Shown piece after piece: positions 124-22,023 of a stretch of DNA of 40,354 bases (position 1 is the first letter of the stretch; the number at the start of each line of letters is the position of its first letter). A program made the position numbers and the translations under genes. The stretch covers positions 1 through 40,354 of the forward strand of contig JANYCU010000015.1 of NCBI GenBank assembly GCA_025360125.1. The letters run 5' to 3'. The notes under the pieces were generated by a model that searched no databases, had not been told where the DNA came from, and was given only the letters and a program-made list of their open reading frames with translations. This DNA comes from Armatimonadota bacterium. GTDB taxonomy: Bacteria > Armatimonadota > Fimbriimonadia > Fimbriimonadales > Fimbriimonadaceae.

Positions 124-181
124 CTATTTTAGGTTCAAAATGGCCTACGCAGTGTAGACGAACAATCGTTCCAGAAGTTTA

Positions 182-3474: not shown

Positions 3475-4335
3475 TTAAGCCGCTGAATACTCAATTCCTT
3501 TGATGTAGTCCGTTGCTTTCTGTGCTTGCGCCGCTGCTGTGACAATGGCCTTAGGATCATTTCTCAGCGCTTTCATCCAGGACTGGATGTAAGGAGCCGA
3601 GTCTGTCTCGACTGTATTGTTTATTCCCACCGTTGCGCAACAGAAGGCGGCGGTAAGTTCGGCAACCAACTCTTCTCGACTGTAGTCTTCCGATCCAAAG
3701 TGAACCCGTTCCATAACCCCTGATCGATTCAACCTTGACGAATGCCCGGTGGAATGGCCTAGCTCGTGAAACTTCACGGAGTAGTAGGCGTCGATCGAAT
3801 CGAATGATGCCAATTTTGGAATGCGTATCAGATCCTGGCTCGGTAAATACCAAGCTTCGTTTCCTTTTTCCTCAATAAAGGGAGGTCTAGGAATTGAGTC
3901 AATGAGGGCATCAGCCCTGCTTATCCGGTGTTCATCGGTGAGGTGTCCAAGCTGTGGTAAAGGTGGCAAACCCAATCCTTCACATTGTTCGGCATTGAAC
4001 GCGGTGAAGTATTTGAGAACGGGGATCGACCTCGGCGGCTTTTCCTCATTCTCGTCCTTCTTCTGCCACTGCTTCCAGAAGACCACCAACGATCCCTTTT
4101 CACCAGGTGTTACTCTTCCTCCAAGCTCTTCAGCCTGTTTGAAAGTGATCCAACGGTGGTCGGCGTATGGCGAGAGTCCTAGTAGCAGGACGTTCACCCC
4201 TCGATACGGTTTATTGCTGACAGCGCTCACCGGAAGCATGGTCTGATCCTTCCACGGCTTGCGCCATGGGACAACACCTTGCTCAAGGGCTTTGAGGATT
4301 TTCAAAGTGACGATTTCGTAAAGATTGCCATTCAT
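3475..4335 (-). CDS. ardC: ArdC-like antirestriction protein (ssDNA-binding, zincin-like)
   Basis: 286 residues with the two-domain plan of the ArdC family (DUF1738-type). The N-terminal domain (about 1-130) carries the typical signatures, including VVPWRKPW at 21-28, NKPYRGVN at 41-48 and TPGEKGSLVVFWK at 76-88. It is expected to bind single-stranded DNA. The C-terminal zincin-like domain has HELGH at 190-194 and a following glutamate near 226 as metal ligands. Family members protect incoming plasmid DNA from restriction during conjugation and are common next to transfer or attachment regions. It is transcribed alone, with an AGGTGAG ribosome site before the ATG and a terminator after it. 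The family call is firm; its specificity is not known. Confidence 0.85.
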   Translation of the reverse strand: MNGNLYEIVTLKILKALEQGVVPWRKPWKDQTMLPVSAVSNKPYRGVNVLLLGLSPYADHRWITFKQAEELGGRVTPGEKGSLVVFWKQWQKKDENEEKPPRSIPVLKYFTAFNAEQCEGLGLPPLPQLGHLTDEHRISRADALIDSIPRPPFIEEKGNEAWYLPSQDLIRIPKLASFDSIDAYYSVKFHELGHSTGHSSRLNRSGVMERVHFGSEDYSREELVAELTAAFCCATVGINNTVETDSAPYIQSWMKALRNDPKAIVTAAAQAQKATDYIKGIEYSAA

Positions 4336-4603: not shown

Positions 4604-5215
4604 TCACAAATCGATTTCGGCAAGTAAGATTGTCACGCAGATTCTTTGCCCTTTTGCCTCGCAAACTACTCCAGTTGCCGCCAGCCCATAATTGCCAGAC
4701 AAAAGTGCGTCTCGATAGGGTTTCCGTCGGAGCCAACTGCCTACGATATCCTCTGGCTTAGACTTGGAGCGTACTGAGGTGACTTCAAGTCCCGAGGCAT
4801 ATCTATCTCGCTGCTGAAGCCGATTTCGAAGAAGCTCTGGAAATATGCGCCATCTGACGGAAATCCTTTTGCTTCTCGCCCTGGCATCAGCCAAGAGTGG
4901 GCCATGCATCGCAAGGCAACTCGCATTGGCACTTCTCCTGGCATCGTTCACTAGCCTTAGTATTTCTTGCTCGAAGCGCAGTAGATCATCATCACGGATC
5001 GATTTCTGCTTCATCACCTGATTGGTGCTGGGCAGACCGGCGGTTGACAGGGCTCCTCTGAATGGTGTTCTCAGACGAAGAAAGAATGGTAAGCCCAGCA
5101 ATATAAGGGTCAGGACGAGCAAGATTATGGCAAGTTTTGGATGGTGGACAAAATATGACCACGCAGCTGCGACAAACGATCCAGCGGCTAACCCAAAGCA
5201 TACTTTTCTCACCAC
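4604..5215 (-). CDS. Membrane protein of unknown function (third gene of operon)
   Basis: 203 residues. Two hydrophobic helices (about 7-23 and 28-46) form an N-terminal membrane hairpin, followed by a basic, mainly soluble C-terminal domain of about 150 residues that I do not recognise. The GTG start at 5215 overlaps the stop of the upstream gene and is preceded by AGGAGGTG, a strong ribosome site lying inside that gene's end, so translation is coupled. An alternative GTG at 5212 would shorten it by one residue. It is the last gene of the operon 7406-4604. Function unknown, but the coupling points to a joint complex with its partners. Confidence 0.7.
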   Translation of the reverse strand: MVRKVCFGLAAGSFVAAAWSYFVHHPKLAIILLVLTLILLGLPFFLRLRTPFRGALSTAGLPSTNQVMKQKSIRDDDLLRFEQEILRLVNDARRSANASCLAMHGPLLADARARSKRISVRWRIFPELLRNRLQQRDRYASGLEVTSVRSKSKPEDIVGSWLRRKPYRDALLSGNYGLAATGVVCEAKGQRICVTILLAEIDL

Positions 5216-5922
5216 TTCACCTCCTCGTCTGAACCGAAGATATGGAAACGTCCTTTGGCATCAAGCTTAGAGAACTTGGGTCGTATCCCTTCCCTTTGGG
5301 CCGGGCGAACTCCCCAGAAGACGATTTCAACATTAGGGATTGTTTCGAGATACTTCACGCTGTCCTCGTAAAGCTTCTCCATCGCAGGGCTGTGATCTTC
5401 GTAGCTTCCGTCCGTTGGAATGAGCAAGCGAACTCGGTATCTCCTTAAGTCCGTGTTTTTCAGAGAGTTGGCCAATGCCGCGACTGCCATCGCCTGGCTC
5501 GTTATCTGTTCCCGACCCGTACCTCCACACGCCTTGCATTTGTGCCGCAGAGGCTCCAGCCCGTGACATGCTTGGCACGGAATTGGCTGCAGAATGGCTC
5601 TTCTGAGAGATAACGAGAATGCTTCGGTGTCGGCGGGAATTTCACTGGCAATTTCCCGAACGTCGTGGTCAAATACGAAAAGCCGAAGCTGATCCTGACC
5701 TCGCTTCAGCGACTCAATTTCATCAAGCGTGACACGTCCATACGCCAGCTTATCGTCCTCAGAACCGCTGTCACTGGCATCGATTGCTCCGGCAAAGAAA
5801 ATGGGAAGGTCGCTCGCTGTGCCCGTCGCCGACTGGGCGGTCACGGTAGGCTTCGCGAAGCCCCAAACTAGGCAAGCGGCGACGATAACGACGAAACCAA
5901 TAAGTGCTGTTTTCATATTCAT
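5209..5922 (-). CDS. Exported protein with paired CxxC motif (DnaJ-zinc-like or haem-c-like)
   Basis: 237 residues with an N-terminal signal or anchor helix (4-22). The middle holds CQACHG at 116-121 and CKACGGTG at 129-136, a spacing like one zinc module of DnaJ. Because the protein looks exported and C116-x-x-C119-H120 also fits the CxxCH haem-c consensus, haem attachment cannot be excluded. The flanks (FVFDHDVREI at about 82-91, RVRLLIPTDG in the C-terminal half) alternate strands and helices in a way that recalls von Willebrand A-like folds; this is inference. It overlaps both neighbours (ATGA with 5919, GTG with 5215), so the three genes are coupled. No homologous family could be named with confidence. 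Confidence 0.65.
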   Translation of the reverse strand: MNMKTALIGFVVIVAACLVWGFAKPTVTAQSATGTASDLPIFFAGAIDASDSGSEDDKLAYGRVTLDEIESLKRGQDQLRLFVFDHDVREIASEIPADTEAFSLSLRRAILQPIPCQACHGLEPLRHKCKACGGTGREQITSQAMAVAALANSLKNTDLRRYRVRLLIPTDGSYEDHSPAMEKLYEDSVKYLETIPNVEIVFWGVRPAQREGIRPKFSKLDAKGRFHIFGSDEEVKW

Positions 5923-7406
5923 TTACCTCTTCGACCGGCTTTGCCAGACACTTCGTAGTGCAGTGCAAAGTAGTCGTTTATTAAAGCGTTCATTTCGATT
6001 TGGATGCCAGCCAGATTCTCTCTCGCATCTTCGACGCGATTCTTCATCTCTGGTGTCCATTCAAGCGGCCATGGAAGGCGTTGGGCTTCCGCTCGCGCGA
6101 TCAGTTCGTCAAATGGAGCCTTTGCTGCACTGAGCCTCTCTGCGGTCCATGCGTAGACTCTTTTGGCTTCCTTGACCAAACTCAACGTGCGAAGTGCTTC
6201 TTTGACGTCAGGGTCAGACCGGCGCTGTTCAATCCGATTTCGGACTTCTTCTTGGAGATGTCCGTGAACTGCGTTTGTGATGGGGTCTTGCCTGCCCTTG
6301 AGCAGTCCCTCGGCGAATCCATACAGCATGTACGCGGCGGAAATTGCCGCTGCAACAAGCCACCAAACCAAGGGAGACACGTCAGTCGACGATTTCTCAA
6401 AGGCGGCGTGGGATTGGGCTGCACGAAGGATTCCCTGACGGTCCATTCCGACAACCGATCCGCCAAGAAACAGGATGACGGCCAGTGCCAAGAGGAACCA
6501 AGCAACCTGTCTCCGGCGTGTTTGCTCTAGGAAGTAGGTTTCGATGAACTGGACAGCATAGAGCCTAATTGCGCCACGAAGAAAAATTGCGACCGCAAAT
6601 ATCCCAATGAGGCACGAAATGCCGATCGAGACGGGCTTTGGATCTTTGAAGAGATCGTTGGCTTTAAGAGCGCCACTCGCCAGAGCGGCAGAGACTCCGA
6701 TAAGGCATCCGCACGCGACTGTCCCCACCCATGAAAGCCAAGTTGGCAGTAGCGATTCGAGGGCGTTCTTGCCAAACGGAACCTTCTGTTTCCACGCTGA
6801 CTCTTCAGTGGAAATCGGCTGAACGCGAATCAGCACCTCCTCGGTAGGGTTCTCAGGATCGTGACATGCCCCAACCTTCGATGCGTAGTCCGCTGCTTCC
6901 TTATGAGCGGCGGAAAGCTCGTCGTGGGCATTTTCAACTGCTTCAACGAAAGGCACGAGCTTTTCATCTCGTTCCTTCGTCAGCTTAGAAACCGTTAGAT
7001 CAACAAGCTTGTCGAGGCTTTCTGATCTCGCCCGCAACGCTTTGAGTTGATTTTCAACATCTAGTCGAACATCCCCGAGCCGCTGGAACTGGGGCACAAT
7101 ATGATCCTGTTGGATTGACCGGAGGTGCGCGGCTAGCAACGAATCATCTTTGGCGATCTCGTCCAAGAACTCCTTAAGCTTCATATCGTCGAGATCGAGA
7201 CCGCCCGTAATGCTTGGGCCATATGAAATACGACGAGGAATACTGTCACCGTTCGGACCTCGCTCCAGAGGCAAAATGGAATGTTCGAGGTTTGAACCGT
7301 TCGCCTTGTAACCGTTCTTCTGTGCGGAATTCTCAGATGCTTCAGATACTATCGAAGACCCAATCACTGCTCTACCGTTTAGATTCTTCTTTTCCGTACT
7401 TTCCAT
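5919..7406 (-). CDS. Four-span membrane protein with coiled-coil arms
   Basis: 495 residues from the ATG at 7406; a TTG at 7415 would add three. The first 80 residues are polar and probably disordered. Residues about 105-180 look like a coiled coil, four hydrophobic spans follow at about 223-243, 259-278, 300-319 and 345-363, and the C-terminal 120 residues are again helical and charged. There is no enzyme motif. It is the first gene of an operon with the exported CxxC protein and the small membrane protein, joined by 4- and 7-base overlaps. The arrangement suggests an envelope complex with a large cytoplasmic part, possibly defence-related, but I cannot assign it to a known system. Confidence 0.7.
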   Translation of the reverse strand: MESTEKKNLNGRAVIGSSIVSEASENSAQKNGYKANGSNLEHSILPLERGPNGDSIPRRISYGPSITGGLDLDDMKLKEFLDEIAKDDSLLAAHLRSIQQDHIVPQFQRLGDVRLDVENQLKALRARSESLDKLVDLTVSKLTKERDEKLVPFVEAVENAHDELSAAHKEAADYASKVGACHDPENPTEEVLIRVQPISTEESAWKQKVPFGKNALESLLPTWLSWVGTVACGCLIGVSAALASGALKANDLFKDPKPVSIGISCLIGIFAVAIFLRGAIRLYAVQFIETYFLEQTRRRQVAWFLLALAVILFLGGSVVGMDRQGILRAAQSHAAFEKSSTDVSPLVWWLVAAAISAAYMLYGFAEGLLKGRQDPITNAVHGHLQEEVRNRIEQRRSDPDVKEALRTLSLVKEAKRVYAWTAERLSAAKAPFDELIARAEAQRLPWPLEWTPEMKNRVEDARENLAGIQIEMNALINDYFALHYEVSGKAGRRGK

Positions 7407-7505
7407 TTTAAACAACCCAAAACAAAACTCTATGAACCTTCTCGCTCATCTGCTTCGCTTATAGGAATACTATACAGCGCAAGTTTCACAAACCGAATTA
7501 AACTA

Positions 7506-7560
7506 ACATTACACGACACTATGCCCGTAATGTCATGCCTAACAATGCGTAGCCGTTAGG
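7506..7560. repeat. Two consecutive inverted repeats between operons
   Basis: The 173-base gap between the helical-repeat gene (ends 7580) and the membrane-protein operon (starts 7406) holds two stem-loops in a row. ACATTAC (7506-7512) pairs with GTAATGT (7527-7533), and CCTAAC (7538-7543) pairs with GTTAGG (7555-7560) over an 11-base loop. Neither has a T-run, so simple terminators are unlikely. A similar CTAAC-11-GTTAG repeat lies at 15121-15141, at the other end of the gene block. The region must also hold the promoter of the 7406 operon. Confidence 0.45.
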
Positions 7561-7579
7561 TCGACTACAGCGTGGCTCC

Positions 7580-8335
7580 CTAGTTATCCTTATCAACGCC
7601 TAATACATGCGCAATTTCATCAATTGCATCCTCTTCCATTCCCGCAGACAAAAACCGATTTCTAAAAGTCAGAACAAGCTTTCCATATCCTGCTTTGACT
7701 AACTCCGCCGCAATGATTCCTGCACTAAGGCCTTGGAATTTCCCAATATTTATTGCCAAACTCCATGAGTTTCCGCCTTCAATTAGCGTTCGGGCCAACT
7801 CTTCTTGTTCTGAGCTAGTTAGCTGCTCTGCATGGTCTGCTATTGTGCCAATACGACCGCTGGCAATTAACCTATCAATTATGAAAGAGCTAGTGACTCC
7901 CGAAAATTGTGTCTTGTTAAGCAGAAGTTCTACATCATCGTGAGCAGCTATCAACTGATCGACAATGTCGGCATGTTTGGAAGCATCGATTTTGAGAATG
8001 TTCTCAGCAACTGACCAGCCACAACCATTTTGGATTAGCTCACTTACCAATCCATCGGAAATACTTTCGATATGATTGAGTCCAAGAGCTATATCCGTAA
8101 AGCACCGGGCTTGTTCGAGCTTGCCAACAATGATGCCTTGACTCACTTCATCAAATTCATCGAGGCAGTACATCATCTTCCAAGCCTCTCCAGCAACAAT
8201 GGCTTCTTCAATGTTTCTCCCCAATCCTTCTAGATCAGGTTCGCTATCTACTCCTTCAATGTTGGGCTTATCCTGTCCTGCCTCGCTAACTTCCTCATAT
8301 TCACTCCCGCCAAGTTGAGGAAACTGTTCATTCAT
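7580..8335 (-). CDS. Alpha-helical repeat protein of unknown function
   Basis: 251 residues. After an acidic N-terminus (about 1-45), the protein is made of imperfect repeats of about 35 residues, each a pair of helices. A recurring theme is a W/S-x-A core, then ILK or IGKF, then a second helix such as IVDQLIAAH, FIIDRLIAS or IIAAELVKAG. GWSVAENIL and SWSLAINIG are two matching repeat starts. This is an alpha-solenoid, normally a protein- or peptide-binding surface. It lies 216 bases downstream of the receiver/winged-helix gene on the same strand, so it may be co-regulated with that operon or have its own promoter in the gap, where I see no clear gene. Function unknown. Confidence 0.6.
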   Translation of the reverse strand: MNEQFPQLGGSEYEEVSEAGQDKPNIEGVDSEPDLEGLGRNIEEAIVAGEAWKMMYCLDEFDEVSQGIIVGKLEQARCFTDIALGLNHIESISDGLVSELIQNGCGWSVAENILKIDASKHADIVDQLIAAHDDVELLLNKTQFSGVTSSFIIDRLIASGRIGTIADHAEQLTSSEQEELARTLIEGGNSWSLAINIGKFQGLSAGIIAAELVKAGYGKLVLTFRNRFLSAGMEEDAIDEIAHVLGVDKDN

Positions 8336-8551: not shown

Positions 8552-9448
8552 CTATTCGTTCCAACTCACAAGTCCTTGAATTAGATGATTTCCGTCATCC
8601 ACTTTGTAGAATGTCCCTGGAAATTTCTTCAGGAGAGCATCCACACAGTTCCTTAAGCGCTGGGCAACCTGCGGACGCATATCCCTGTCTTCAAGGACAT
8701 CCCAAATCGGGCTGACCTCGGAAAGCTTCTGACGATTCGTGTAAAGCAGATCTATGATTTCTTCAGTTGACCAAGTTTTTTTGGGTGTCCGCGCCAGTAA
8801 CTGAAATACAATTGTTCTCGAGGACCAAGACTGGAGGCGAGCTTTTTTGCCCGTGCTTTCCACAACAATATCTCGATACACTTTGAATCCTGAAATTACG
8901 ATGGACTCGTCGACATCGTACGGCGATATCAAGACGCCATTGCCTTCTCGAAGGTCAAAGCTCTTGACAATATGTGCCCTAATTTTGTCCCAGTGGGCGG
9001 AATTTCGGATATTGTCAACATCAATGAGTACTTCTCCAAGCAACACTAAACGCATCTCCTTGATTAGTTTTTCCTGCGCTATTCTTTCCGGTCTTGTACT
9101 TGCAAACAGGATCGGTGGAGTGCTCTCGCCTAGTACCAACGCAATCTGTCTAACAAGATGTAAACCACCAAGCCAAGAATTCTTCTCTGAGTGTGGCATT
9201 CTTACATCGGATACAATGAGCCGGACATCATATTGTGAAAGTTGATTCAGAAGCGTTGGCGACCCTAAAAGCTTTAATCCAATTGCAGAGTGAGTATCAG
9301 GTGAGTATCCAATACAGTGAAGAGAGGTGATTTCAAATTGTCGCAGCATGGGCCCTAGTGCTTCCTCCCATTCATCATGCATCATGCCAGCATCATCCAG
9401 GTAGATGATGGCCGGTTTACCCTTGCGAGGCGGATCAGGAGCGGCCAA
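8552..9448 (-). CDS. Receiver-domain response regulator with C-terminal winged helix
   Basis: 298 residues from the TTG at 9448, preceded by AGGAGGAAGG nine bases upstream and one base after the stop of the previous gene; a TTG at 9475 would add nine residues without a ribosome site. The receiver domain (about 15-165) has an acidic pair in IIYLDD and the likely phospho-acceptor Asp in IVSDVRMP. The later lysine normally found in a KP motif is not evident, so the switch may be atypical. The C-terminal 100 residues look like an OmpR-type winged helix. It is a close relative of the receiver-only protein encoded just upstream. As last gene of the operon 15081-8552 it is the probable transcriptional output of the kinase encoded at 9947. 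Confidence 0.72.
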   Translation of the reverse strand: MAAPDPPRKGKPAIIYLDDAGMMHDEWEEALGPMLRQFEITSLHCIGYSPDTHSAIGLKLLGSPTLLNQLSQYDVRLIVSDVRMPHSEKNSWLGGLHLVRQIALVLGESTPPILFASTRPERIAQEKLIKEMRLVLLGEVLIDVDNIRNSAHWDKIRAHIVKSFDLREGNGVLISPYDVDESIVISGFKVYRDIVVESTGKKARLQSWSSRTIVFQLLARTPKKTWSTEEIIDLLYTNRQKLSEVSPIWDVLEDRDMRPQVAQRLRNCVDALLKKFPGTFYKVDDGNHLIQGLVSWNE

Positions 9449-9449
9449 C

Positions 9450-9950
9450 CTAACCTTCCTCCTGAAATTGGTCAAGACATTTCATGATGTACTGCAAAAT
9501 GTTTTGCCACTGTTCAGGACTATCAGGATCATCTCCGTCCGTCCATACTTCTCCAAGGATTGTAAGGTCCTGCTCTTTTGCCAGAATTGCCTGTAATTCC
9601 TTTTCCGGTCTGGCACTTGCAAAGAGCACCGGCGGCATATCTCCCTCAAGTACGATTGCGACTTGACGAACGATCTCGATACCGCCCAATCCACGGCCTC
9701 GGCCCGGAAACGGCATCCGAACATCAGATACAATTAGCTTGATATCATATGACCGAAGGCTATTTAGTAATTCATGGGTTTTTAGCAATTCAAGCTTGCT
9801 TGTCGAACTGTGGTCTGGTTCGTATCCAATGCAGTGGAGAGTTTTTACTCCTCTTTTCTTAAGGAGAGTACCGAGAGCCCAATCCCAAGCTTCATGCATG
9901 TCATTGACGTCGTCAATATATACTATCGCTAGTCCCTTCTTTTGAATCAT
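9450..9950 (-). CDS. Stand-alone receiver-domain protein
   Basis: 166 residues, essentially one CheY-like domain without an output domain. The acidic pocket is YIDD at 11-14, the probable phospho-acceptor is D76 in IVSDVRMP, and a switch serine lies in LFASARPEK. The usual KP lysine is not evident. It shares its layout and many residues with the N-terminal half of the next gene (VSDVRMP, VRQ-IA, GEV-D), so the two look like a tandem duplication in which one copy kept a DNA-binding domain. The ATG overlaps the kinase stop as ATGA. It may be a phosphate sink, a relay step or a partner-binding regulator of the kinase. Confidence 0.75.
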   Translation of the reverse strand: MIQKKGLAIVYIDDVNDMHEAWDWALGTLLKKRGVKTLHCIGYEPDHSSTSKLELLKTHELLNSLRSYDIKLIVSDVRMPFPGRGRGLGGIEIVRQVAIVLEGDMPPVLFASARPEKELQAILAKEQDLTILGEVWTDGDDPDSPEQWQNILQYIMKCLDQFQEEG

Positions 9951-11980
9951 TTCTCTTCGAGAACCTCTATTGGAAATCTAAGAATGGCTTCTACCACGTA
10001 GGGAAAGCAACCATGCTCATCTTTGTGTGGACTTAGTTTAAGCGTCCCGTTCAATACCCTCTCTGTAAATACTCTAAGCTGACTCAATCCGACTCCACTC
10101 CCCTCACCTAATGCAAGTCGCTCGCTGTGACTGTTAAGGTTGAATCTCATCCAAGTCGATGCGCATTTCTCACAACATGCCATCCCGGCGGCTAACATTG
10201 GATTTGGCGCTGAACACTTTTTATGTTTTGACATCCACTTGCAAAGTGGGAGCACTGAGTCATTATCAGGAATCATTAAAGACTCTACAAGACTTGACCT
10301 ATTTTTGATGGTTATTTCGCAGTGCCCTTGGATAATTCTAGCTTTGACTTGAATGTCGGTCCCAGCAAAAACATATTTATGTGCGTTAACTAGAAGCTCG
10401 ACAAGAAGCAAAATAAGGACAGGTCGACTTCTTAAAGCAACTTGCTTCTCTAGGTCCGGAGAGATATCGCACTCATAATTCGCTACTTGTCCGGTCTTTC
10501 CACGTGAGAACTTTATGTCATACAATCTTCTGCAGGCAGCTTCCTGCATACACTCTTTTAAAGTCTCACTAATATTTATTGCCGTAGCCTTGTCTCTAAG
10601 AATCTCTTGGCTCTGTGCAATCATTCCAGATGAATAGCTTCTGACGATCGTAGCATATGCTTCCAATGCATCATATAGAGATTTCTGCGTTCCAATACTC
10701 CCTTGAATAACATCCATGTGGGACTCAAGTTTGCCAAACTCGAAAGATTTCTTGTCCTCAATTTCATTTCGAATTTCTTTGATTTCTCTCCGGATCATTT
10801 GAACGCCCTTATCAAGATCGTGCCGGACATGACCAAACACTGTATGCCAGTCCTTGCGTTCACGGTCAGCTAGTACCTCTAACATTCTCAATGGTTCAAG
10901 TAACATCCGACCAGCGTGAGCGATTCCTTCAAGGGTTGAAGCAGGCACTCGAACCGACGTGTATAGATTCAGGGTTCCCAAATTGTCATCGACAACGCTG
11001 CCTCTTAGCATTGGAAAGCACGATTCCAGTGGAAATGTATAATAGAAGTCAAAATTGCCGACAAAAACTCCGTCCAAGGGATTTAGATTTTCCTTAAAAT
11101 CGGGAACTTCAGCGAGAGTGTCCCGTAGCCATTCGACAGACTCTCTCCACTCCGGGCCAAGGTTGCGTTCTATTGAAAGGCATAGCTGATTTAATTGCTC
11201 AAGACTACTGGAAAACTGTGCACCAGTCTGGTTGCAAATCATTGATTTTAACAAGCCTTCCCAAAGCTGTTCAAGAATTCTTTCCGATTCTGGATCGAGC
11301 ACTCTGTTAGAAGAAATAATCGGAAACGAAGGTATTTTCGTCATGCCGTGGCGCGACCATTGCTCTGACATTTGGTCGTTTAATGTCCTGATGATTACGC
11401 CGGGCGCGGCATTGGGAGTTAATTCTACACTGAGAATTCGATCATCACGGTCGCCTAAAGGTTTCGCACTTATTTCAACGGCTATCGGCGGATTTGCTAG
11501 TTGTCGAACAAAGTCCCACCATTCGGTGAATCCTCTTGTCTGAACGCCGCCAAGATTCTGATCGTAAATTGCCCTCATCCAAAGTACGAGCGGAAAGGCT
11601 GTTGAAAACACATTTGAACCTTTCGTACCCCAACCAACTTGGCGAGTGCTCAAGTCCTTTATTGAGCTTTTTTGTTCAATTTGCGTTGTAGACAGTTCTC
11701 GGATGTCAAATCGTTGTGGACCCTTGGACTCATCAGATAACCATCTATACCCAGGCCAAATGAACCACGGATCGGAATCTCTGTGTCCGGGAAGGCTCTT
11801 GAGAATCGTCGCAACATAATGACCCAGCGTTACAGTTATCTCCCTGTGTAACTCAAATATTTCATGCCCGTCCAGGCGACCATTTTTTAGCGCATTTTGC
11901 AATTGCGGTTGCAATTGTCTTCGCTGCACCAGGAGGTGACGAAGTGCTTCAAGTTCATTGTTGATACCATTTCCCGGCAT
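9947..11980 (-). CDS. Soluble sensor histidine kinase with cysteine-rich insert
   Basis: 677 residues from the ATG at 11980, preceded by GAGG; a TTG at 11995 overlapping the previous stop would add five. There is no membrane span, so the signal is probably cytoplasmic. The large N-terminal region (about 1-370) is unfamiliar. A helical dimerisation part contains HVRHDLDKG, where the H of RHDL is a plausible phospho-acceptor (AgrC/SpoOB-like). The GHKL ATPase part has the N-box VELLVNAHKY and the G2 box GEGSGVGLSQL. The normal D-x-G-x-G box is not visible; in its place is an insert with cysteines (CKWM, KKC, ACCEKC) that could bind metal. It is coupled to the di-iron protein gene before it and the receivers after it. 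Confidence 0.7.
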   Translation of the reverse strand: MPGNGINNELEALRHLLVQRRQLQPQLQNALKNGRLDGHEIFELHREITVTLGHYVATILKSLPGHRDSDPWFIWPGYRWLSDESKGPQRFDIRELSTTQIEQKSSIKDLSTRQVGWGTKGSNVFSTAFPLVLWMRAIYDQNLGGVQTRGFTEWWDFVRQLANPPIAVEISAKPLGDRDDRILSVELTPNAAPGVIIRTLNDQMSEQWSRHGMTKIPSFPIISSNRVLDPESERILEQLWEGLLKSMICNQTGAQFSSSLEQLNQLCLSIERNLGPEWRESVEWLRDTLAEVPDFKENLNPLDGVFVGNFDFYYTFPLESCFPMLRGSVVDDNLGTLNLYTSVRVPASTLEGIAHAGRMLLEPLRMLEVLADRERKDWHTVFGHVRHDLDKGVQMIRREIKEIRNEIEDKKSFEFGKLESHMDVIQGSIGTQKSLYDALEAYATIVRSYSSGMIAQSQEILRDKATAINISETLKECMQEAACRRLYDIKFSRGKTGQVANYECDISPDLEKQVALRSRPVLILLLVELLVNAHKYVFAGTDIQVKARIIQGHCEITIKNRSSLVESLMIPDNDSVLPLCKWMSKHKKCSAPNPMLAAGMACCEKCASTWMRFNLNSHSERLALGEGSGVGLSQLRVFTERVLNGTLKLSPHKDEHGCFPYVVEAILRFPIEVLEEK

Positions 11981-11991
11981 ACCAAAAATCC

Positions 11992-12831
11992 TCAATAAAT
12001 CGGATGAGCGGCAAGACAGGCATCATACACTGTGAGACGCACTTGATAGAATTTCACCATTGTATTTATGCTGTCACCAATGTTTGGGATCAGGGAAAGA
12101 GCTTGTTTCATGATAGGACCATGCTTACCATCATCCAATTCAATGTGTGCTTTCAAAAAATGTCTGTAGGCCTCATATTTGCTTTCGTTTGGAATTTTGA
12201 GCTGTAGATTTTCAAAAGCTGGACTCAGGCTCAGTTCTCTTAGCCCAACCGTAGACAATGCTTCATAGTAAGTATTGGCGCAGTGCTCACTGAGCACCAT
12301 GTAATCTGTGCAGGACGTGTGAAATCCTTCGCCTACCATCACGCTTCGAACATTCGCCCTGTGTTCTCCATCTTGGGCACCAAAGTGCTCCGTCCGAGCA
12401 TTTCGAACCAAGATCTCAACGGGCTCCGTATTAATTCCAGCCTGCTGTGCCGCTTCAAGCATTGCAACATAATGAGGACCAATTGATACTCGCTTCATCG
12501 GAATGTTGTCGGTGGATAGCTCCTCATCAGCTAACGAGAGAATCAAATGAAGAAATTGCCCATCCTCTTTTACAGCAAAAGGATGGCTCGGCAACGCAGC
12601 CGACAAATAACCACGTAGGCAACCAAGCAAATTACCATAAAAACAGACAGTAAAAAGCAGGCTCGCTCGGACCATATTATCAATTGCTTCTGGCCGTTCC
12701 AGGTTAACGGCTGGGTGATTGTAGAGCTTCAAAGTAACCTCTTCGAGCCTATCAAATCTAGAGTGCTGCCGAAAACTATCAGGGAAACCGTCGAGCAAGT
12801 TAGGAACGTTAATCATATTATTCAATCTCAT
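11992..12831 (-). CDS. Haem-oxygenase-like di-iron (HDO-type) protein
   Basis: 279 residues, all helical. The pattern fits the haem-oxygenase-like iron-containing redox family: glutamates in LADEEL (103-104), H120 in GPHYVAML, E190 in YYEAL, and H229, D233/D234 and H237 in HIELDDGKHG near the C-terminus. Together these resemble the two-iron ligand set of enzymes such as UndA, SznF and BesC, which oxidise or cleave amino acids and fatty acids. The His/Asp spacing in the last motif is slightly unusual, so activity is not assured. The gene overlaps the ABC ATPase gene by 14 bases and the kinase gene region by a few, within one operon. An ATG at 12816 is an alternative start. A natural guess is that it acts on, or makes, the compound handled by the transporter. 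Confidence 0.6.
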   Translation of the reverse strand: MRLNNMINVPNLLDGFPDSFRQHSRFDRLEEVTLKLYNHPAVNLERPEAIDNMVRASLLFTVCFYGNLLGCLRGYLSAALPSHPFAVKEDGQFLHLILSLADEELSTDNIPMKRVSIGPHYVAMLEAAQQAGINTEPVEILVRNARTEHFGAQDGEHRANVRSVMVGEGFHTSCTDYMVLSEHCANTYYEALSTVGLRELSLSPAFENLQLKIPNESKYEAYRHFLKAHIELDDGKHGPIMKQALSLIPNIGDSINTMVKFYQVRLTVYDACLAAHPIY

Positions 12832-13552
12832 TCAGTTCATCCGCCGCAAATAGAAACCTTTTTAGCCGATCAGTCTTTGGATCAGATAATATAGAAACTG
12901 GTCCATTTTCATGTATTTCGCCACGATCTAGGAATACTACTACATTTGCAGTCTTCCGAACAAATCCTAGCGAATGAGACACGAATACTATCGCCACGCC
13001 TTGCTTGCTTCGATCGGTTATGACTTCCCGAAGTGTTCGAATATGCTCAACGTCAAGTGACGCCGTAACTTCATCTAGCAAGAGTAAATCTGGATCAAGG
13101 GATAGCGCTCTACACAAGGCGAAGAGTTGTCGCTGTCCGCCAGATACCTGGTTCGGAAAGCGAGATCCAATCTTTTCAATCTGAAACATTTCTAGGTATT
13201 CCTCAGCACGTTCAATCTTGCTCATGTCCATTTGCTGCCTAAGCGGCATCAAAACATTCTCTCGTAAACTGAGGTGTGGCCACAAACAAAGGCTCTGAAA
13301 CACGAGTGTGGTCTTTGGCCATGGCTTGTGTAGCCTTAACGGATCGCAAGGGAAATCGTATAAGTGCGAACACAAGTTCAGTTGGCCAGAATTTGCGGAC
13401 TCGATACCTGCGATGACCCTGAGTAGGGTGCTCTTTCCTGCGCCACTTGGGCCAATAATTCCGACGACCTCACCAGGTCTTACATCAAGTGATACATCGC
13501 TCAATATTGAACAACCTTTAATCTGCTTGGATATATTTCTAGCCTGTATCAA
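12818..13552 (-). CDS. ABC transporter ATP-binding protein (polar amino-acid type)
   Basis: 244 residues with all ABC ATPase motifs: Walker A GPSGAGKS at about 33-40, a Q-loop in LVFQSLCL, the signature SGGQRQ, Walker B LLLLDEVTASLD and the H-loop VFVSHS. Length and motifs fit the GlnQ/HisP group. It works with the permease encoded 5 bases upstream and the lipoprotein encoded before that to power import. It is unusual to find this transporter fused by overlapping genes to a di-iron protein and a two-component system. Its 3' end overlaps the start of the di-iron protein gene. Confidence 0.9.
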   Translation of the reverse strand: MIQARNISKQIKGCSILSDVSLDVRPGEVVGIIGPSGAGKSTLLRVIAGIESANSGQLNLCSHLYDFPCDPLRLHKPWPKTTLVFQSLCLWPHLSLRENVLMPLRQQMDMSKIERAEEYLEMFQIEKIGSRFPNQVSGGQRQLFALCRALSLDPDLLLLDEVTASLDVEHIRTLREVITDRSKQGVAIVFVSHSLGFVRKTANVVVFLDRGEIHENGPVSILSDPKTDRLKRFLFAADELNEIE

Positions 13553-13557
13553 TTTCC

Positions 13558-14217
13558 TTAGGTCTCCGAGTAATCACGACCAAACCGTTTTTGAATCTGA
13601 TTGGCAACCAAATAGACAGGAATCGTGACTGCGAGGAAGAAGATGGCTAGGGCAGTATATATCTCGACAGGCTTATAGATCTGGGAATTAATTCGTTGGG
13701 CGGCTCTGAATAGTTCATCAACGGAAATGAAGCTCGCGAACAAACTGGCGTGAAGCATATTAATTTGAACGATGAGAATCCCGGGCAATGCATGGCGTGC
13801 CACGAGGGGCAAAGTTATCCGCCACGCAATCGTCCCAGGATTCAGACCCGAGACCTTTGCGACCAGTTGATATTGCATTGGGCAATCTTCATAGCACCTA
13901 CGCCAAATATCGGCCACCCAAAATATATTGAGCGTACTAAGAGCCACAATTGCGGTCAATTTTGGATCGACCACTATGCCAAGCATATATTGAGCCGGAT
14001 AGTGGAGCCAAAAGAGCCACACAATGATAGGTATCCCTGAAAGTCCAAGTCCTATTGCTCGAACAGGCATTCCCACCAACACACGATATCTGCCCGCTGC
14101 AACACCAAGTGGTGTCCCAAGGGCTATTCCAAGCCCCCAGATCCACGCGCAAATCACTAGCGTTGTCCGTAGCCCGCCTGCGAACTCACCAGCATGTTCA
14201 GACAGTATTTTCAGCAT
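13558..14217 (-). CDS. ABC transporter permease (polar amino-acid type)
   Basis: 219 residues with about five membrane spans. The conserved cytoplasmic loop contacting the ATPase is in the middle, around AKVSGLNPGTIAWRITLP, close to the EAA loop of HisM/GlnP-type permeases. Only one permease gene is present, so it would act as a homodimer, which is normal in part of this family. It sits 15 bases after the lipoprotein gene and 5 bases before the ATPase gene. Substrate cannot be read directly; the family takes up polar amino acids and related compounds. Confidence 0.88.
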   Translation of the reverse strand: MLKILSEHAGEFAGGLRTTLVICAWIWGLGIALGTPLGVAAGRYRVLVGMPVRAIGLGLSGIPIIVWLFWLHYPAQYMLGIVVDPKLTAIVALSTLNIFWVADIWRRCYEDCPMQYQLVAKVSGLNPGTIAWRITLPLVARHALPGILIVQINMLHASLFASFISVDELFRAAQRINSQIYKPVEIYTALAIFFLAVTIPVYLVANQIQKRFGRDYSET

Positions 14218-14232
14218 CCTTGCACTTCTTCG

Positions 14233-15081
14233 TTATGGCAAATACGGCTTGGCTACTCTATAAAAAAGGTGGCTGTCACCCTCGTATTTTTTAATGATCG
14301 CGTCCATTGTTCCCGTGTTTTGAATCTCTTGCAGGGCATTGTCAATCATAGATTTGAATTGAGGTTCATTCTTAGGCATAACAAAAACGTCGGCAAAAAT
14401 CCGTATCGGCTTCTTCTCAGCAACATTCTTAACTGAATTTGGATTGCTTGCAAGAAACTTCATGCCCTGATAAGGCTCAGCAAAAAACAAGTCTGCCTTG
14501 CCTCCTACAACATCTAGAAAGAGTTGTGATTCAGACGTGTGGTCGGGATACGAAATAATCTTGGCCTTTGGAAATTGTGTCTGTGCAATGAGAAGAGGGG
14601 AAGATCCGTCGATAGCGGCGATCCTAATGTTTGGATTGTTAATTGACTGCCAATCATTATCTGGATTCAAGCGGGTTTCACCAGGTCGAGTCCAGATTCC
14701 GATTCCGCTGTAGAAAGCTGGGACGGATAGCGTGGCAAGTTTGCCTCTTGCCGAGTTAGACCAGACTCCTGCCCCAACCATGTCGTAACGGCCAGTACCT
14801 AACCCCTCTAAGAGCCCTTCCCAGCCTACTTCCTCTGTAAACTCGACTTTTAGTTTTAGGCTTTTCGCCATCTCTCTCAGGGCATCGGGGAAAATTCCCG
14901 TCACTTCCTTTGTCTTGGGGTCGACTATGCAGTTGGGAGGGTAGTTGATATAAGCGGCGTGGATTACTCCCGAATCGAGAACTTTTTGATAGGCCGTTGT
15001 GCTCGAATTAATCTGGCGAGTTGGTTGACAGCCGACAAGAGCAACGCCAATGAGGATGAAAAGGGCAGGTTTTAGTTGCAT
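14233..15081 (-). CDS. Extracellular solute-binding lipoprotein of the ABC importer
   Basis: 282 residues. The signal peptide ends in a lipobox LVGC with Cys at 18, so the mature protein is a lipid-anchored receptor. The rest is a family-3 (amino-acid type) binding protein: VLDSGVIHAAYINYPP near the start, then VTGIFPDAL, GRYDMVGAGVW and a hinge with GGKADLFFAEPY. It is the first gene of the operon running down to 8552. The divergent ATPase gene starts at 15359 on the other strand. Family-3 proteins bind polar amino acids, opines and modified amino acids; the ligand here is unknown. Confidence 0.87.
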   Translation of the reverse strand: MQLKPALFILIGVALVGCQPTRQINSSTTAYQKVLDSGVIHAAYINYPPNCIVDPKTKEVTGIFPDALREMAKSLKLKVEFTEEVGWEGLLEGLGTGRYDMVGAGVWSNSARGKLATLSVPAFYSGIGIWTRPGETRLNPDNDWQSINNPNIRIAAIDGSSPLLIAQTQFPKAKIISYPDHTSESQLFLDVVGGKADLFFAEPYQGMKFLASNPNSVKNVAEKKPIRIFADVFVMPKNEPQFKSMIDNALQEIQNTGTMDAIIKKYEGDSHLFYRVAKPYLP

Positions 15082-15358
15082 GTATGAAGTATATGACCCA
15101 GTTCTCGAAACTGAATTAATCTAACGTTTGCTACCCGTTAGGCTTTTTAAAGATCGGATCTGCTAGCGAAGAATATGACTGGGCACACGTCTGAGAACGA
15201 CTTCCCATTAGGTAGGAGCTTTGGCATCATCTCTGTGATCCACAAATGTCACCTTGATCTGCTTTGACAAGGAATCATTTGGGTATGTTAGACAAGGTCT
15301 TCTCATGTCGTTCAAGAGTCGTGATGGGATCATTCTGTCGACCACTTTAGGAAAGAAA
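15082..15358. other. Divergent promoter region with an inverted repeat
   Basis: 277 bases between the divergent lipoprotein gene (starts 15081, minus) and the AAA ATPase gene (starts 15359, plus). It must hold both promoters. CTAACG (15121-15126) pairs with CGTTAG (15136-15141), followed by a T-run on the plus strand; the same CTAAC-11-GTTAG pattern occurs at 7539-7559. An in-frame extension of the ATPase gene into this region from 15254 looks non-coding. I see no separate gene. Confidence 0.5.
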
Positions 15359-16657
15359 ATGCATATCAGCCGTGTCATCGTCAAGAAGCTAAACGGGAGT
15401 ATTTCGTACGATATTCCGTTTCACCCATCAGGAATTACCCTCATTACGGGACCTAACGGCTATGGAAAAACGTCTGTTTTGAGACTGATTGACGCCATGT
15501 TCAACATACGACTAGATACCTTTGCTCAGATAACATTTGAGGAGGTAGAAATTGAATTGTCGGACGGCTCAGGCTTGGCGGTTCGAAAGCTTTCAGAGGT
15601 ACTAGAGGGCTTTAATTTGAGCTTTGGGACCAGATCGTCCCGAAAGAAAGCATTCCATTTTCAATCCAAAGACTTTTCATTTGATGATTTTGCTGCCGAG
15701 TCTGATGGAAGCAATAGCTACTCATTGAGTTTCGATAAATTCATTCGAGAAAAAGAGCGCAAAGGAACAATCCGACGACTTCCTGGAGGAAGATGGCGAG
15801 GGAGGTCCGGGGAAGCTCTTGCTCTGGAGGATTTGCAGGTTGAGTTTATGAAATCCTCGGCCGCACTTGAAGAAGTTCCGGACGAGTATTTATCTGTTGT
15901 CCGAAATTCAATTCCATTGTTCCTTTCTGCCCACCGACTTCACGGCTCAGATCAAGCCACAGCGGTTGATCTTGTGGCCGAGCAGGTTCGGAGCCAAATC
16001 AAACTTGCGCGAGATGAACACAGTAAGGCTAGTCAACGGATTGATCAAGATTTTCCACGCAAACTGCTAAGCAGATCAGAATTAATCCCCTGCACTGAAC
16101 TTGAAGTACGGCAAGCATTCGATCGCTTAGCGGAGTCGTGGACCAGATATAGGGATTTAGGACTTTTGCAGGAACCAAGTTTTGAGGGATTTGGCAAAGG
16201 GATTCAAAAAGATCGCCTCTCAATTGCGATGCTCTTCCTAGAAGATCAGCGAAAGAAACTTGAGGTCTTTGCCTTGATCGAGAAACGCTTGATGCTATTT
16301 CGTGCCCTTGTTGATGAGCATCTAGAACTGAATAAAACGGTTACTTTTTCGGACATCAAAGGGATTGAAATTATTGATACAAGGGGGACCCCGATCCCCT
16401 TGACGCGACTGTCTTCGGGAGAGCAACAGCTCCTCGTCCTGTTTGCGACACTACTTTTCTGCGAGCCTTTGCCAAGTTTTGTCCTGATTGATGAACCCGA
16501 ACTAAGTCTTCACCCTAGTTGGCAAAAGAGCTTCGTTGAAAATATTGAGCGAATCCGAGAATTAGTTGAAGTGGATTTTGTGCTTGCGACACACTCACCA
16601 ACTATTGTTGATGGCAGGCTGGATCAAATGGTTGATCTTTGGATGGCCCAGAAATGA
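15359..16657 (+). CDS. ariA: AAA/ABC-type ATPase, probable PARIS AriA
   Basis: 432 residues from the ATG at 15359, preceded by AGGA at seven bases; an upstream ATG at 15254 would add 35 unlikely residues. It is an SMC/ABC-like ATPase of the AAA15/21 kind: Walker A GPNGYGKT at 31-38, a central helical region (about 190-330), a signature-like SSGEQQL near 353, Walker B FVLIDEPELSLHP near 375-387 and ATHSPTIVD near 411. The stop overlaps the next gene (ATGA), which encodes a DUF4435/TOPRIM protein. This pairing, order and size match the two-gene form of PARIS, where AriA holds AriB until an antirestriction protein is sensed. The system call rests on gene pairing and motifs only. Confidence 0.65.
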   Translation: MHISRVIVKKLNGSISYDIPFHPSGITLITGPNGYGKTSVLRLIDAMFNIRLDTFAQITFEEVEIELSDGSGLAVRKLSEVLEGFNLSFGTRSSRKKAFHFQSKDFSFDDFAAESDGSNSYSLSFDKFIREKERKGTIRRLPGGRWRGRSGEALALEDLQVEFMKSSAALEEVPDEYLSVVRNSIPLFLSAHRLHGSDQATAVDLVAEQVRSQIKLARDEHSKASQRIDQDFPRKLLSRSELIPCTELEVRQAFDRLAESWTRYRDLGLLQEPSFEGFGKGIQKDRLSIAMLFLEDQRKKLEVFALIEKRLMLFRALVDEHLELNKTVTFSDIKGIEIIDTRGTPIPLTRLSSGEQQLLVLFATLLFCEPLPSFVLIDEPELSLHPSWQKSFVENIERIRELVEVDFVLATHSPTIVDGRLDQMVDLWMAQK

Positions 16658-17646
16658 AGCCAGAAAAGAGTTTTGACTGGTATGTTAATTCAGAGAGTAG
16701 GCGCGCAGCCCAGGCGGCAATGACTCCGTTCGAAATTACTATTGCAGTAGAGGGTGAATCAGATTGGGAGTGGCTTTGCAAATTAGTAATTCCTAATCGA
16801 GTAAGAATCGAGTACGGGAACAACGGCGGCAAGAAATGGGTCTTGGAAAGAGTACGAAGCTCCCGAAAGGATTCCTTGAACGTCATCGGAATCATTGATC
16901 GGGATTTTGAGGGACTATGTGGTGAACGTGTTGAGGAGGGTGAAAGAGGCATTTTTGACACTGAAGTAAGGGACTCGGAGGTCTTAATCGCTTCATCTGG
17001 TGTCCTTAGAGATGCGCTCCTACATTGCTGCCCGCCCAAGACAAAACTTGAAAGGCAAATTAACCGTGTTGATCAAATCATTTCAGAAGCACTTGCATCC
17101 GCAGCCTTAGTCGGTGGTGTTCAACTTGCCAGTCACAGGAGGTTTGGCCTTGGGAAAGTCGTACCAAGAAAAGCTTGGAATCGTCTCTGGACATTTTTTG
17201 TTAAAGATTCATCGGGGCGCTGGGTTTTTGACCTCGAAAAATGGCTCTTGATCTTAAAAACCCAATTTAAATGGACAAATGACGAAGCTAATTTGCTTCG
17301 TGTTGAAACCATGAATGTCCTTGCCGAGGTCACCAAGGAAGCCGAGTTTTGGATGATCAGGTTAGGTGTCGAGACACCCACAAATGACCAAATTAGCAGG
17401 GCTAGGCACCTTTTGTTAGCTCATGGTCATCACCTTATTGATTTCGCTGCAATGGCCTGGTTCACGGAACTAGACGGCTTTAGAGCGCAAGATAAAGTTC
17501 GAGAGAACTCAAGCCGGAATTTAGCCGAACGATCTCGCCTTCTTTTCAGCGTGGCACTTTTCAAGACAACAGACTTGTTCTCAAAAATTGAAGTCTATTG
17601 CAAATCTAATTTTGGAACTGAATATGCAGTTTTTCGCAGTGCCTAA
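16654..17646 (+). CDS. ariB: DUF4435/TOPRIM-like nuclease, probable PARIS AriB
   Basis: 330 residues from the ATG that overlaps the AriA stop as ATGA; a TTG at 16639 would add five. The N-terminal 120 residues carry the TOPRIM pattern of DUF4435: E33 in AVEGESDW, D82 and D84 in IIDRDFEG, and acidic residues in FDTEVRDSEV (101-110). The rest is helical. In characterised PARIS systems AriB is released from AriA when phage antirestriction proteins are detected, and cleaves host tRNA. The acidic catalytic set looks intact, so an active effector is plausible. Other ATPase-TOPRIM pairs (OLD-like) are the main alternative. Confidence 0.62.
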   Translation: MKPEKSFDWYVNSESRRAAQAAMTPFEITIAVEGESDWEWLCKLVIPNRVRIEYGNNGGKKWVLERVRSSRKDSLNVIGIIDRDFEGLCGERVEEGERGIFDTEVRDSEVLIASSGVLRDALLHCCPPKTKLERQINRVDQIISEALASAALVGGVQLASHRRFGLGKVVPRKAWNRLWTFFVKDSSGRWVFDLEKWLLILKTQFKWTNDEANLLRVETMNVLAEVTKEAEFWMIRLGVETPTNDQISRARHLLLAHGHHLIDFAAMAWFTELDGFRAQDKVRENSSRNLAERSRLLFSVALFKTTDLFSKIEVYCKSNFGTEYAVFRSA

Positions 17647-17794: not shown

Positions 17795-20050
17795 TCAAAT
17801 TGCATCTCCCGGCTCACATAGCAAATGGCAATGAAGATCCTGATCACAAAGTATGAGCATGAAGGCCGGCTTCCCTGCTGGATACATTCGGTCAGCAATC
17901 CAGGCCATTTGAATGAGGTCACGATCGCTTGGACCACAAACTGCGCGATCCGGGTGAGAATGCCATTCACCAACATACGAGACCTGATTCCAGGTCTTTC
18001 GTTCGGCTTCTCGAATCGCATCCGCCAAGCCTTGGATTCCCCGCTGACAACTCGACGGATCCTCCTCACTATCAATCGGAGCTGGCAGTGCATCGATCAG
18101 GTAAAGGCACTTTCGCTGAGTATCAATATCGCCTAGGAGGACTCCGCACGTCTCCGAAGGAAGTTTTGCTTTGCGAAATTCGTGGAGCTTCTGGAGAAGT
18201 CCGGCATCTGCCTTCACGGTCCACGAATCGTTCCTAACCTTCGAGGAATGGGATGGATACAGCGGGATTGTATGACGAACCACCTCCAACGATTCAGGAT
18301 TGCAACGTGAAACGAATAACTGAGCCTCTGTTGACGAGTCAATACTCCGGATCGTTCTTGCCACGACCGCGCTATGAATACTCACCGGTTCAGGTGATAT
18401 CCGAGAGCTCAAGTCCCGGCAAGAGCCTCCGAATCGGAAAGGTTCATCGAATGCTGGTAAATGATCTGCTAAGTTAGGGTCATTGAGGATAGCTCGAATG
18501 TACTGAGATTCTATGCAGTCAATCGGGATTTCGCGCTGACCATCTTCAGCCATGCAAACGAGGTCTCTTCCGTCTGGTGTGAAGAAGCCGCTAAATCGCC
18601 TTGCATTCCCATATTCTACTAACGATAGTTGGCGTCGAACTGGCGTTGAGGCCGTCAAATCTACAATAAGCTGGGCATCCTTTGAGGCGTTCAGAATTGC
18701 TTCGGCCTGACCCATCGGAAACAAAATGTCAGCGTTAACGAAACTAGCCAATTCTTCGGTGAAAATCGTATTCGCGCCATGAGCCATTTCCTCGGCTTTG
18801 TAGAGTCCCCATCGTCGACCTAAAACTTGATGGCGAACAATGTTGTGAGGCAAGATCACGTCTTCGTCAACGAGCGTCCAACGCCCGAACGCCTGTCTGG
18901 CCAGCATCGCGAAGGTCTGAGAACCCAGTGCACCAAGTCCGAACATGACCATTTTCGATCGGTCGCTCTCTGTACTGCCACTAGCGTATGCAGCCTCGTC
19001 CGGCGTCAGCACAAGCCGCGGCTGAAGCATTTCTAAGCGTATGTTTAGCGAAGCTCCTTGAACCGCACCGTCGCTCGACAACAAGGCCTGGTATTTGCCT
19101 CCCATCTGGGCCAGAAAACCGAGTTGAACCCCGAGTTCCCCAGGTGGCAGCTCCTTACCGTCATTGCTGACGCATCGAAAAACACTGTAATCGATCCTTT
19201 CAACGTCGCCTCCTTCGGTCCTCACCATTGGAACCCGCAGAACGAGAAATGTACCTCGCAGATTCTCTAATCCCAGTCCCGATCGTTTTCGCAATTGAAC
19301 CTTCAGGGAGTCAAGCAAATCAAAACCAGCATTGTTACAAAGCTCTTGAAGTTGGTCCAACGTCTCCGGGCTGGTTCTAATTACGCCGTGAATCTGACCA
19401 GGCAATTCGATTTGAATCAGGGAAGCCTTTGTGCCTTGCAAATGGCGAGGCAATTTATCAGCCGAATCAGCTACGAAGACTTCATCCCTCGTCCCACTGT
19501 TGGCCACATAGACATCGAGGAAAAGCTCCCCTTCGGGAACAGAAAGCGCCTGTGGCGGAAGAATGATGGCCTTAAGCGCGGCCGGCAGAAACGGCTCCAG
19601 ACTCTGTCCCGGTCCGTGGAGGCGACCTCGAGAGTTCTCCTTGAACCACCAAAGTATGCGCTCGCCCAACAATGAGGCGGTCCATCGCATGAACACGAAA
19701 TTGGGATCTTCTCCAAAAAGGCAGAGGCTCTTCGGAAATCCCCTGTGGACCATATTGAGATGCGGAACGTCGGGAAAATCGCCCCGTTCGGACCAGACCT
19801 CTGGCATGATTCCGATACCAAGAAAGAAAACCGCCACCAACGGCTCCTCGTAGAGCAGTCCCGGATAGATGGGTTTCGAAGGGACATCTGGCTTTACCGT
19901 AAACCGAACAAATTCAATGCCTTCCGCCTTGCGGCATTCTCGAAGTTCGAATAGCTCGTTTAGATCATTGCCGACATATTCAGCAAAGGCCCGTGCCCGC
20001 GCATCGTTTAACGATTCAAGCATGACAGCTTCCCCTATCTCATAGATCAC
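17795..20050 (-). CDS. Fused E2-E1-JAB protein of a ubiquitin-like conjugation system
   Basis: 751 residues in three modules. The E2-like domain (about 15-150) has PHLNMVHRGFPKSLCL, resembling the HPN...G-x-IC-L region of E2 enzymes, with C110 as candidate catalytic cysteine. A spacer domain spans about 170-345. The E1/ThiF domain (about 365-570) has GLGALGS at 371-377, D395 in LVDEDV, N403 and R406 in HNIVRH, and D464 in IVDLTAS; C499 could be its thiolate. The JAB/JAMM peptidase (about 610-740) has E633, H697 and H699 in WHSHP, S708 and D711. All key residues look intact. Start is GTG 20050; ATG 20023 after GGGGA is an alternative. It follows an MBL gene by eight bases. The combined E1-E2-deubiquitinase logic recalls bacterial CBASS Cap2/Cap3 and Bil/Bub systems. 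Confidence 0.85.
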   Translation of the reverse strand: MIYEIGEAVMLESLNDARARAFAEYVGNDLNELFELRECRKAEGIEFVRFTVKPDVPSKPIYPGLLYEEPLVAVFFLGIGIMPEVWSERGDFPDVPHLNMVHRGFPKSLCLFGEDPNFVFMRWTASLLGERILWWFKENSRGRLHGPGQSLEPFLPAALKAIILPPQALSVPEGELFLDVYVANSGTRDEVFVADSADKLPRHLQGTKASLIQIELPGQIHGVIRTSPETLDQLQELCNNAGFDLLDSLKVQLRKRSGLGLENLRGTFLVLRVPMVRTEGGDVERIDYSVFRCVSNDGKELPPGELGVQLGFLAQMGGKYQALLSSDGAVQGASLNIRLEMLQPRLVLTPDEAAYASGSTESDRSKMVMFGLGALGSQTFAMLARQAFGRWTLVDEDVILPHNIVRHQVLGRRWGLYKAEEMAHGANTIFTEELASFVNADILFPMGQAEAILNASKDAQLIVDLTASTPVRRQLSLVEYGNARRFSGFFTPDGRDLVCMAEDGQREIPIDCIESQYIRAILNDPNLADHLPAFDEPFRFGGSCRDLSSRISPEPVSIHSAVVARTIRSIDSSTEAQLFVSRCNPESLEVVRHTIPLYPSHSSKVRNDSWTVKADAGLLQKLHEFRKAKLPSETCGVLLGDIDTQRKCLYLIDALPAPIDSEEDPSSCQRGIQGLADAIREAERKTWNQVSYVGEWHSHPDRAVCGPSDRDLIQMAWIADRMYPAGKPAFMLILCDQDLHCHLLCEPGDAI

Positions 20051-20058
20051 GGTGCTTT

Positions 20059-21171: not shown

Positions 21172-21183
21172 AATGTAGACACC

Positions 21184-21213
21184 AGTATACCTAGTATGCG
21201 GACCATTCCTCAA
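21184..21213 (-). promoter_or_regulatory. Probable sigma-70-type promoter of the MBL/E2-E1-JAB operon
   Basis: On the minus strand, TTGAGG (21213-21208) and TATACT (21189-21184) are separated by 18 bases, and the ATG at 21171 follows 12 bases after the -10 box. The very short leader suggests either a nearly leaderless message or a later start. It argues that the 21171 gene is transcribed independently of the membrane-protein gene upstream. Confidence 0.45.
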
Positions 21214-21325
21214 TCGCCTTTGGCCACTTTTTCACAGATTTCCGATAAAGATATCACCCTTGGCCGGTAATAAATCTAGGACCGGCTTTGGCTTGTCAAA
21301 TTGTCTGCTATTCCAAGCTGTCTAG

Positions 21326-22015: not shown

Positions 22016-22023
22016 TTCTTACC

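Follow-up and report, generated by a model that had tools for sequence, protein, structure and literature searches.

Why would one operon on a mobile element of an Armatimonadota bacterium encode an amino-acid-type importer, a haem-oxygenase-like (HDO) protein and a two-component system? An initial annotation, made from the sequence of contig JANYCU010000015.1 (assembly GCA_025360125.1), had described seven such genes, and we re-analysed them within the whole stretch of 40,354 nucleotides, hereafter the window. Only about a dozen HDO enzymes, a growing class, have been characterised, most of them with fatty acids or amino acids as substrates (PMC13108848). An HDO encoded together with a dedicated importer and sensor would reveal substrate and signal at once, a rare situation.

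Organization of the operon

All seven ORFs are present in the set and order initially described, co-directional on the minus strand from 15081 to 8552, and the opposite-strand ORFs of the region do not exceed 132 residues. They code for a solute-binding lipoprotein, a permease, an ATPase, a 279-residue helical protein, a 682-residue kinase-like protein and two receiver-like proteins of 166 and 307 residues.

14233 to 15081, minus strand: solute-binding lipoprotein of family 3, with an LVGC lipobox (SBP_bac_3, 2.7e-23)
13558 to 14217, minus strand: single ABC permease of the PAAT type (BPD_transp_1, 2e-13)
12818 to 13552, minus strand: ArtP/GlnQ-like ABC ATPase (ABC_tran, 2.3e-30)
11992 to 12831, minus strand: haem-oxygenase-like, putative dimetal protein, a divergent DUF3050 member (28.3 bits)
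9947 to 11980, minus strand: soluble histidine-kinase-like protein (HATPase_c, 17.2 bits, and motifs; the mechanical start is TTG 11995)
9450 to 9950, minus strand: stand-alone receiver-like protein (Response_reg, 13.9 bits, and motifs)
8552 to 9475, minus strand: receiver with a C-terminal domain of about 140 residues, a putative winged helix (likely start TTG 9448)
15121 to 15141, no strand: inverted repeat CTAACG-N9-CGTTAG, a weak candidate for a regulator site

The genes of the lipoprotein and the permease are separated by 15 bases and those of the permease and the ATPase by 5, while the ATPase and HDO genes overlap by 14 bases and the kinase gene overlaps that of the first receiver by 4. 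Two junctions depend on the start codons. The HDO and kinase genes overlap by 4 bases with the mechanical TTG or are 11 bases apart with ATG 11980, which is preceded by GAGGA and is probably the kinase start. The two receiver genes overlap by 26 bases with the first TTG of the second one or are 1 base apart with TTG 9448, which is preceded by AGGAGG and is probably the start of the last gene. The gaps of at most 15 bases and overlaps of 4 to 14 bases initially reported thus hold as stated, with these two junctions refined to gaps of 11 and 1. The seven genes are largely translationally coupled, and their even GC content (0.445 to 0.488) fits one transferred unit. A divergent intergenic region of 172 bp separates the operon from AriA/AriB-like genes (15254 onwards), and the inverted repeat listed above is the only one with arms of at least 6 bases in it.

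A PAAT importer with a likely amino-acid-like ligand

The Pfam matches of the three importer proteins are firm, and a family 3 solute-binding protein with a matching permease and ATPase makes this a PAAT importer. It shares these features, including a one-domain permease and an ArtP/GlnQ-like ATPase, with the GlnHPQ, ArtJQMP and EhuABCD importers. Unlike them, it has a single permease and a lipoprotein as its binding protein, and its NCBIfam equivalog scores, which would assign a named substrate, are all far below the cut-offs. The best NCBIfam model for the ATPase is ArtP (171 bits against a cut-off of 369), and the permease is GlnP/ArtQ-like, again with all scores below cut-off. The binding protein aligns along its length with ancestral cyclohexadienyl dehydratase/amino-acid binding proteins, its nearest solved chains being AncCDT/amino-acid binding proteins (E 1e-18). 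In the alignment, inspected by eye, the carboxylate-anchoring Arg position is kept and the position of the amino-contacting Asp is occupied by Glu. Judging from these sequences, the ligand is likely to be amino-acid-like. With clear Pfam matches and a binding protein that resembles amino-acid binders, the importer is of the type initially proposed.

A divergent DUF3050 protein with a haem-oxygenase-like fold

The 279-residue protein passes the gathering cut-off of DUF3050 (PF11251), with 28.3 against 22.2 bits. Using the pattern H-x-E-x-D-x3-H-G-P, we collected 44 different DUF3050 proteins of full length from viral contigs, and their alignment (A1) yielded an AF2 model of the operon protein with a pLDDT of 74.6; a fold predicted from the single sequence was poor and was set aside. 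The model shows the seven-helix, haem-oxygenase-like fold. Its closest solved structure is HamA (9vwb, Z 22.2, rmsd 3.1 over 230 residues), further matches being UndA and HrmI (both Z 18.1) and CADD (Z 17.4), with PolF also among the nearest. The A1 profile finds 9vwb at 9e-81, and a fold search of the viral library gave no credible match. With HamA as the closest structure and MgoB as a member of DUF3050 (PMC3298696), the proposed link with the HDO enzymes of the leudiazen/valdiazen clusters is supported.

The ligand set of HDO proteins consists of three His and three carboxylates (PMC13108848, PMC13185094), which in MboA are E86, H89, E143, H172, D176 and H181 (PMC13185094). We assigned the role of each residue by pattern against MboA rather than from coordinates. 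Five of the six expected metal-ligand positions (H120, E199, H229, D233 and H237) are invariant in A1, including the operon protein, which also retains R198 and E231. The sixth position, the alpha-1 carboxylate, has moved to D102/E103/E104, where the confidence of the model is low. The description as a haem-oxygenase-like di-iron protein therefore stands for the fold and the family but is uncertain with respect to this ligand. We dropped the idea of a di-iron site broken through the loss of D64, since the MboA ligands (E-x2-H, E, H-x3-D-x4-H) map to other conserved positions.

A face of helix 47-79 (H58, W63, D64, F65, M66, Q73) together with Y124/M128, near-invariant in the A1 relatives, is lost in the operon protein, which has L58, C63, F64, Y65, G66, M124 and A128. 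As the ligand positions are kept and this face is lost, we infer that the metal site is likely conserved and that the substrate pocket may have been remodelled. The protein thus has the Pfam family, the fold, the H-x3-D-x3-H helix, R198-E199 and H120 in common with HamA and MgoB of the fragin-valdiazen cluster and the mgo operon, but it differs from them in the helix-face residues, at about 16-21% identity, and in its association with an importer and a kinase in a genome where no AurF N-oxygenase was detected. With UndA, MboA, HrmI, PolF and CADD, representing HDO proteins at large, it shares the fold and most of the three-His/three-carboxylate set, except that its alpha-1 carboxylate is not placed with certainty.

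A soluble kinase-like protein and two paralogous receivers

The kinase harbours H, N and G2 motifs (GHVRHDL 388, ELLVNAHKY 533 and GEGSGVGL 630), the last two of which flank a Cys-rich insert (585-611); no recognisable G1 box was found by eye. Its HATPase_c score is 17.2 bits, and 19.6 bits (0.0013) for the C-terminal part, against a cut-off of 26.4. No stretch is hydrophobic enough for a membrane helix, and the N-terminal 385 residues match no family, so the kinase would need some input partner. The receivers are paralogues, 46% identical to each other, and both keep the acidic pair DD, the SDVRMP motif, the phospho-Asp and the Ser/Thr, with the usual Lys absent. Their Response_reg scores are 13.9 bits for the stand-alone protein and 13.3 bits for the other one (cut-off, 30.2). 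The kinase and both receivers are so divergent that motifs are the main means of recognising them. The motifs and the lack of a membrane segment are compatible with the cytoplasmic histidine kinase and two receivers originally proposed, although all scores are under the Pfam cut-offs. For the larger receiver, the motifs agree with the receiver assignment, but the winged helix was found by no tool and remains an eye-read pattern; neither Pfam and NCBIfam nor the PDB sequences gave a match for the last 140 residues (8555-8983).

The nearest systems to this part are two-component systems with soluble kinases and Detocs, which has a three-gene layout. Shared with them are a soluble kinase, a stand-alone receiver and a receiver with an output domain in one operon. 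In contrast, the domains here are divergent, they are embedded in an importer operon and there is no PNP or other toxic effector; Pfam detected no PNP domain in any protein of the operon, the receivers included.

Search for relatives

In 291 genomes of the phylum, the kinase, the HDO protein and a DUF3050 family search retrieved the window alone, and the large receiver the window plus stray matches (E 0.03-0.1). Across two other phyla (195 and 392 genomes), the kinase gave a single match, which lies in a spurious frame of high GC content. None was found in the plasmid collection for the kinase, HDO and receiver or in phage records for the HDO protein. Contig collections were scanned for exact short peptides of the kinase and receiver: no exact 8-mers of the kinase occurred in the genome contig and viral contig collections, nor any of the receiver in viral contigs. 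A receiver motif pattern gave one match in viral contigs, which was false. A DUF3050 pattern devoid of the invariant R228 identified five stretches in the genome contig collection, three of which match the HDO protein, and none has an importer or a kinase in the fetched flanks. One locus (L084) codes for a second divergent DUF3050 member, without importer or kinase neighbours, and the fetched flanks of the phage DUF3050 loci contain no importer or kinase either. The seven-gene set was found nowhere else within the collections searched, and the operon is a new combination of known part types. As no relative has the same combination, conservation cannot back the link between importer, HDO protein and kinase.

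In addition, contigs of T4-like phages (L064:2291-6620, L007, L037 and L021) have HamA-type DUF3050 genes next to radical SAM genes, in L064 between gp32-like SSB and UvsX-like genes. These genes possibly represent an unexplored phage biosynthetic module.

The operon is cargo of an integrative element

The contig ends are identical over 141 bp (window 1-141 and 40214-40354), so that the contig either closes to a 40,213-bp circle or ends in attachment repeats. Parts of this end sequence, from about base 74, recur in contigs C14, C32, C38, C41 and others, in C14 and C41 at the contig ends. Among the genes of the contig are those for an integrase, ArdC, a large recombinase, a T4CP-like ATPase and a Replic_Relax protein. 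Several homologues of the T4CP-like gene were found, both in other parts of this genome and in four further genomes of the genus. Eight sister regions harbour the backbone genes (ArdC, recombinase, etc.) in varying subsets, none of them with the operon genes; SIR2, HerA, GajB/Old, TIR and lanthipeptide genes are among their cargo. The operon lies between the ArdC and recombinase genes, together with PARIS-like and E1-E2-JAB genes. It is thus mobile cargo in the variable slot of an integrative-element family, in a setting of defence and small-molecule loci, in agreement with the mobile-element context first noted. This family (window 246-1403, 3475-4335, 23111-24703 and 24956-30450; L110-L117) is present in several copies in one genome, in which recombinase, ArdC, Mrr-like and T4CP-like genes surround the slot (SIR2, HerA, Gabija-type, TIR).

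Two candidate defence loci accompany the operon: an AriA/AriB-like pair (PARIS-like, DUF4435) at window 15254-17646, and an E2-E1-JAB fusion beside two metallo-beta-lactamase-fold genes at 17795-23010.

Possible functions

Our preferred reading, to which we give a probability of about 40%, is that the operon imports and oxidises an amino-acid-like compound, as a self-regulated module with its own two-component control. It builds on direct observations, namely the gene order and spacing of seven co-directional, largely coupled genes of even GC content, the PAAT importer with its amino-acid-binder-like protein, the fold nearest to HamA, UndA, HrmI and PolF with invariant H120, E199, H229, D233 and H237, and the H, N and G2 motifs of the kinase along with two similar receivers that keep the acidic pair and phospho-Asp. 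The lipoprotein would capture an amino-acid-like compound, to be imported by the permease and ATPase, and the haem-oxygenase-fold protein would bind this compound or a cytoplasmic derivative at its metal site and oxidise it. The soluble kinase might respond to the substrate, to its product or to the redox event by phosphorylating the two paralogous receivers, of which the larger may adjust transcription, probably of its own operon, and the smaller would compete for phosphate. The uncertain alpha-1 carboxylate, the substrate-facing DUF3050 helix devoid of its invariants, and kinase and receivers under cut-offs, with no G1 box, no usual Lys and no DNA-binding domain detected, argue against this reading. 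The logic connecting importer, HDO protein and kinase is plausible and rests on adjacency in a single locus. A bolder version, in which an HDO of new specificity modifies an imported amino-acid-derived signal and the dedicated soluble kinase reads the product rather than the original, as a mobile circuit, is speculative and quite unlikely. If the link holds, a mobile element would carry a ready-made unit for perceiving small molecules alongside defence genes.

Alternatively, two independent modules might be stacked in the cargo slot, an importer-HDO unit of catabolic or detoxifying function and a kinase-receiver trio without relation to it, whose co-transcription would be an accident of insertion. 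Slots of such elements in the genus do hold unrelated cargo side by side, and no relative connects the two halves. Nevertheless, with either start the HDO and kinase genes are spaced as tightly as the other genes, and the base composition is even, and we regard mere stacking as rather unlikely. The abutting HDO and kinase genes, and the need of the soluble kinase for an input partner, could also reflect a non-enzymatic HDO protein that binds a ligand or metal and relays the importer status to the kinase. The loss of the DUF3050 invariants (H58, W63-D64-F65-M66, Y124 and M128) would fit such a sensor; however, H120, R198, E199, H229, E231, D233 and H237 are all kept, which argues for a used metal site, and we deem this role unlikely.

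The operon might also serve in phage defence or competition, with the two-component pair detecting an attack and setting off a response. This is possible from the location alone, by guilt by association: AriA/AriB-like and E1-E2-JAB genes lie next to it, and SIR2-HerA and Gabija-type genes are found on sister elements. A kinase with two receivers also recalls Detocs. However, a nutrient-type importer is unusual in defence, and no scanned gene convincingly matches a PADLOC model: of the operon, the scan covered the kinase and large receiver, which had no match, and the HDO protein, which had one weak CARF match (0.006). A toxic effector domain is also absent, whereas the best-described system of the named Detocs family uses a PNP effector (PMC11249213). 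Defence thus appears very unlikely. The least probable reading, which we consider hardly tenable, is the leudiazen/valdiazen-type signal system initially evoked, with an HDO making a diazeniumdiolate from an amino acid and a kinase sensing the product. HamA is the closest fold and MgoB belongs to the same family, but the active-helix residues are replaced, no AurF-type N-oxygenase (mgoC/hamC, PF11583) was detected in the genome, which is 98.6% complete, and no NRPS domain was detected among the window ORFs scanned with Pfam. The lost helix face and the missing N-oxygenase leave this pathway unsupported, and the chemistry of the HDO protein probably differs from it.

Other loci of the element family

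Four minus-strand genes downstream of the operon (window 4604-8335) have no Pfam match above cut-off; three code for proteins with hydrophobic segments and one for a protein with a DnaJ-like cysteine motif, which might represent a separate membrane system. The element also encodes an RHS-repeat protein of 1333 residues (32538-36539). Lastly, a lanthipeptide-type cluster with lantibiotic dehydratase domains and a LanC-like protein is apparently cargo of a sister element (L112, G000:C55:11200-31100). The cluster, which probably includes a luciferase-like monooxygenase, is assigned to this locus on the basis of gene lengths.
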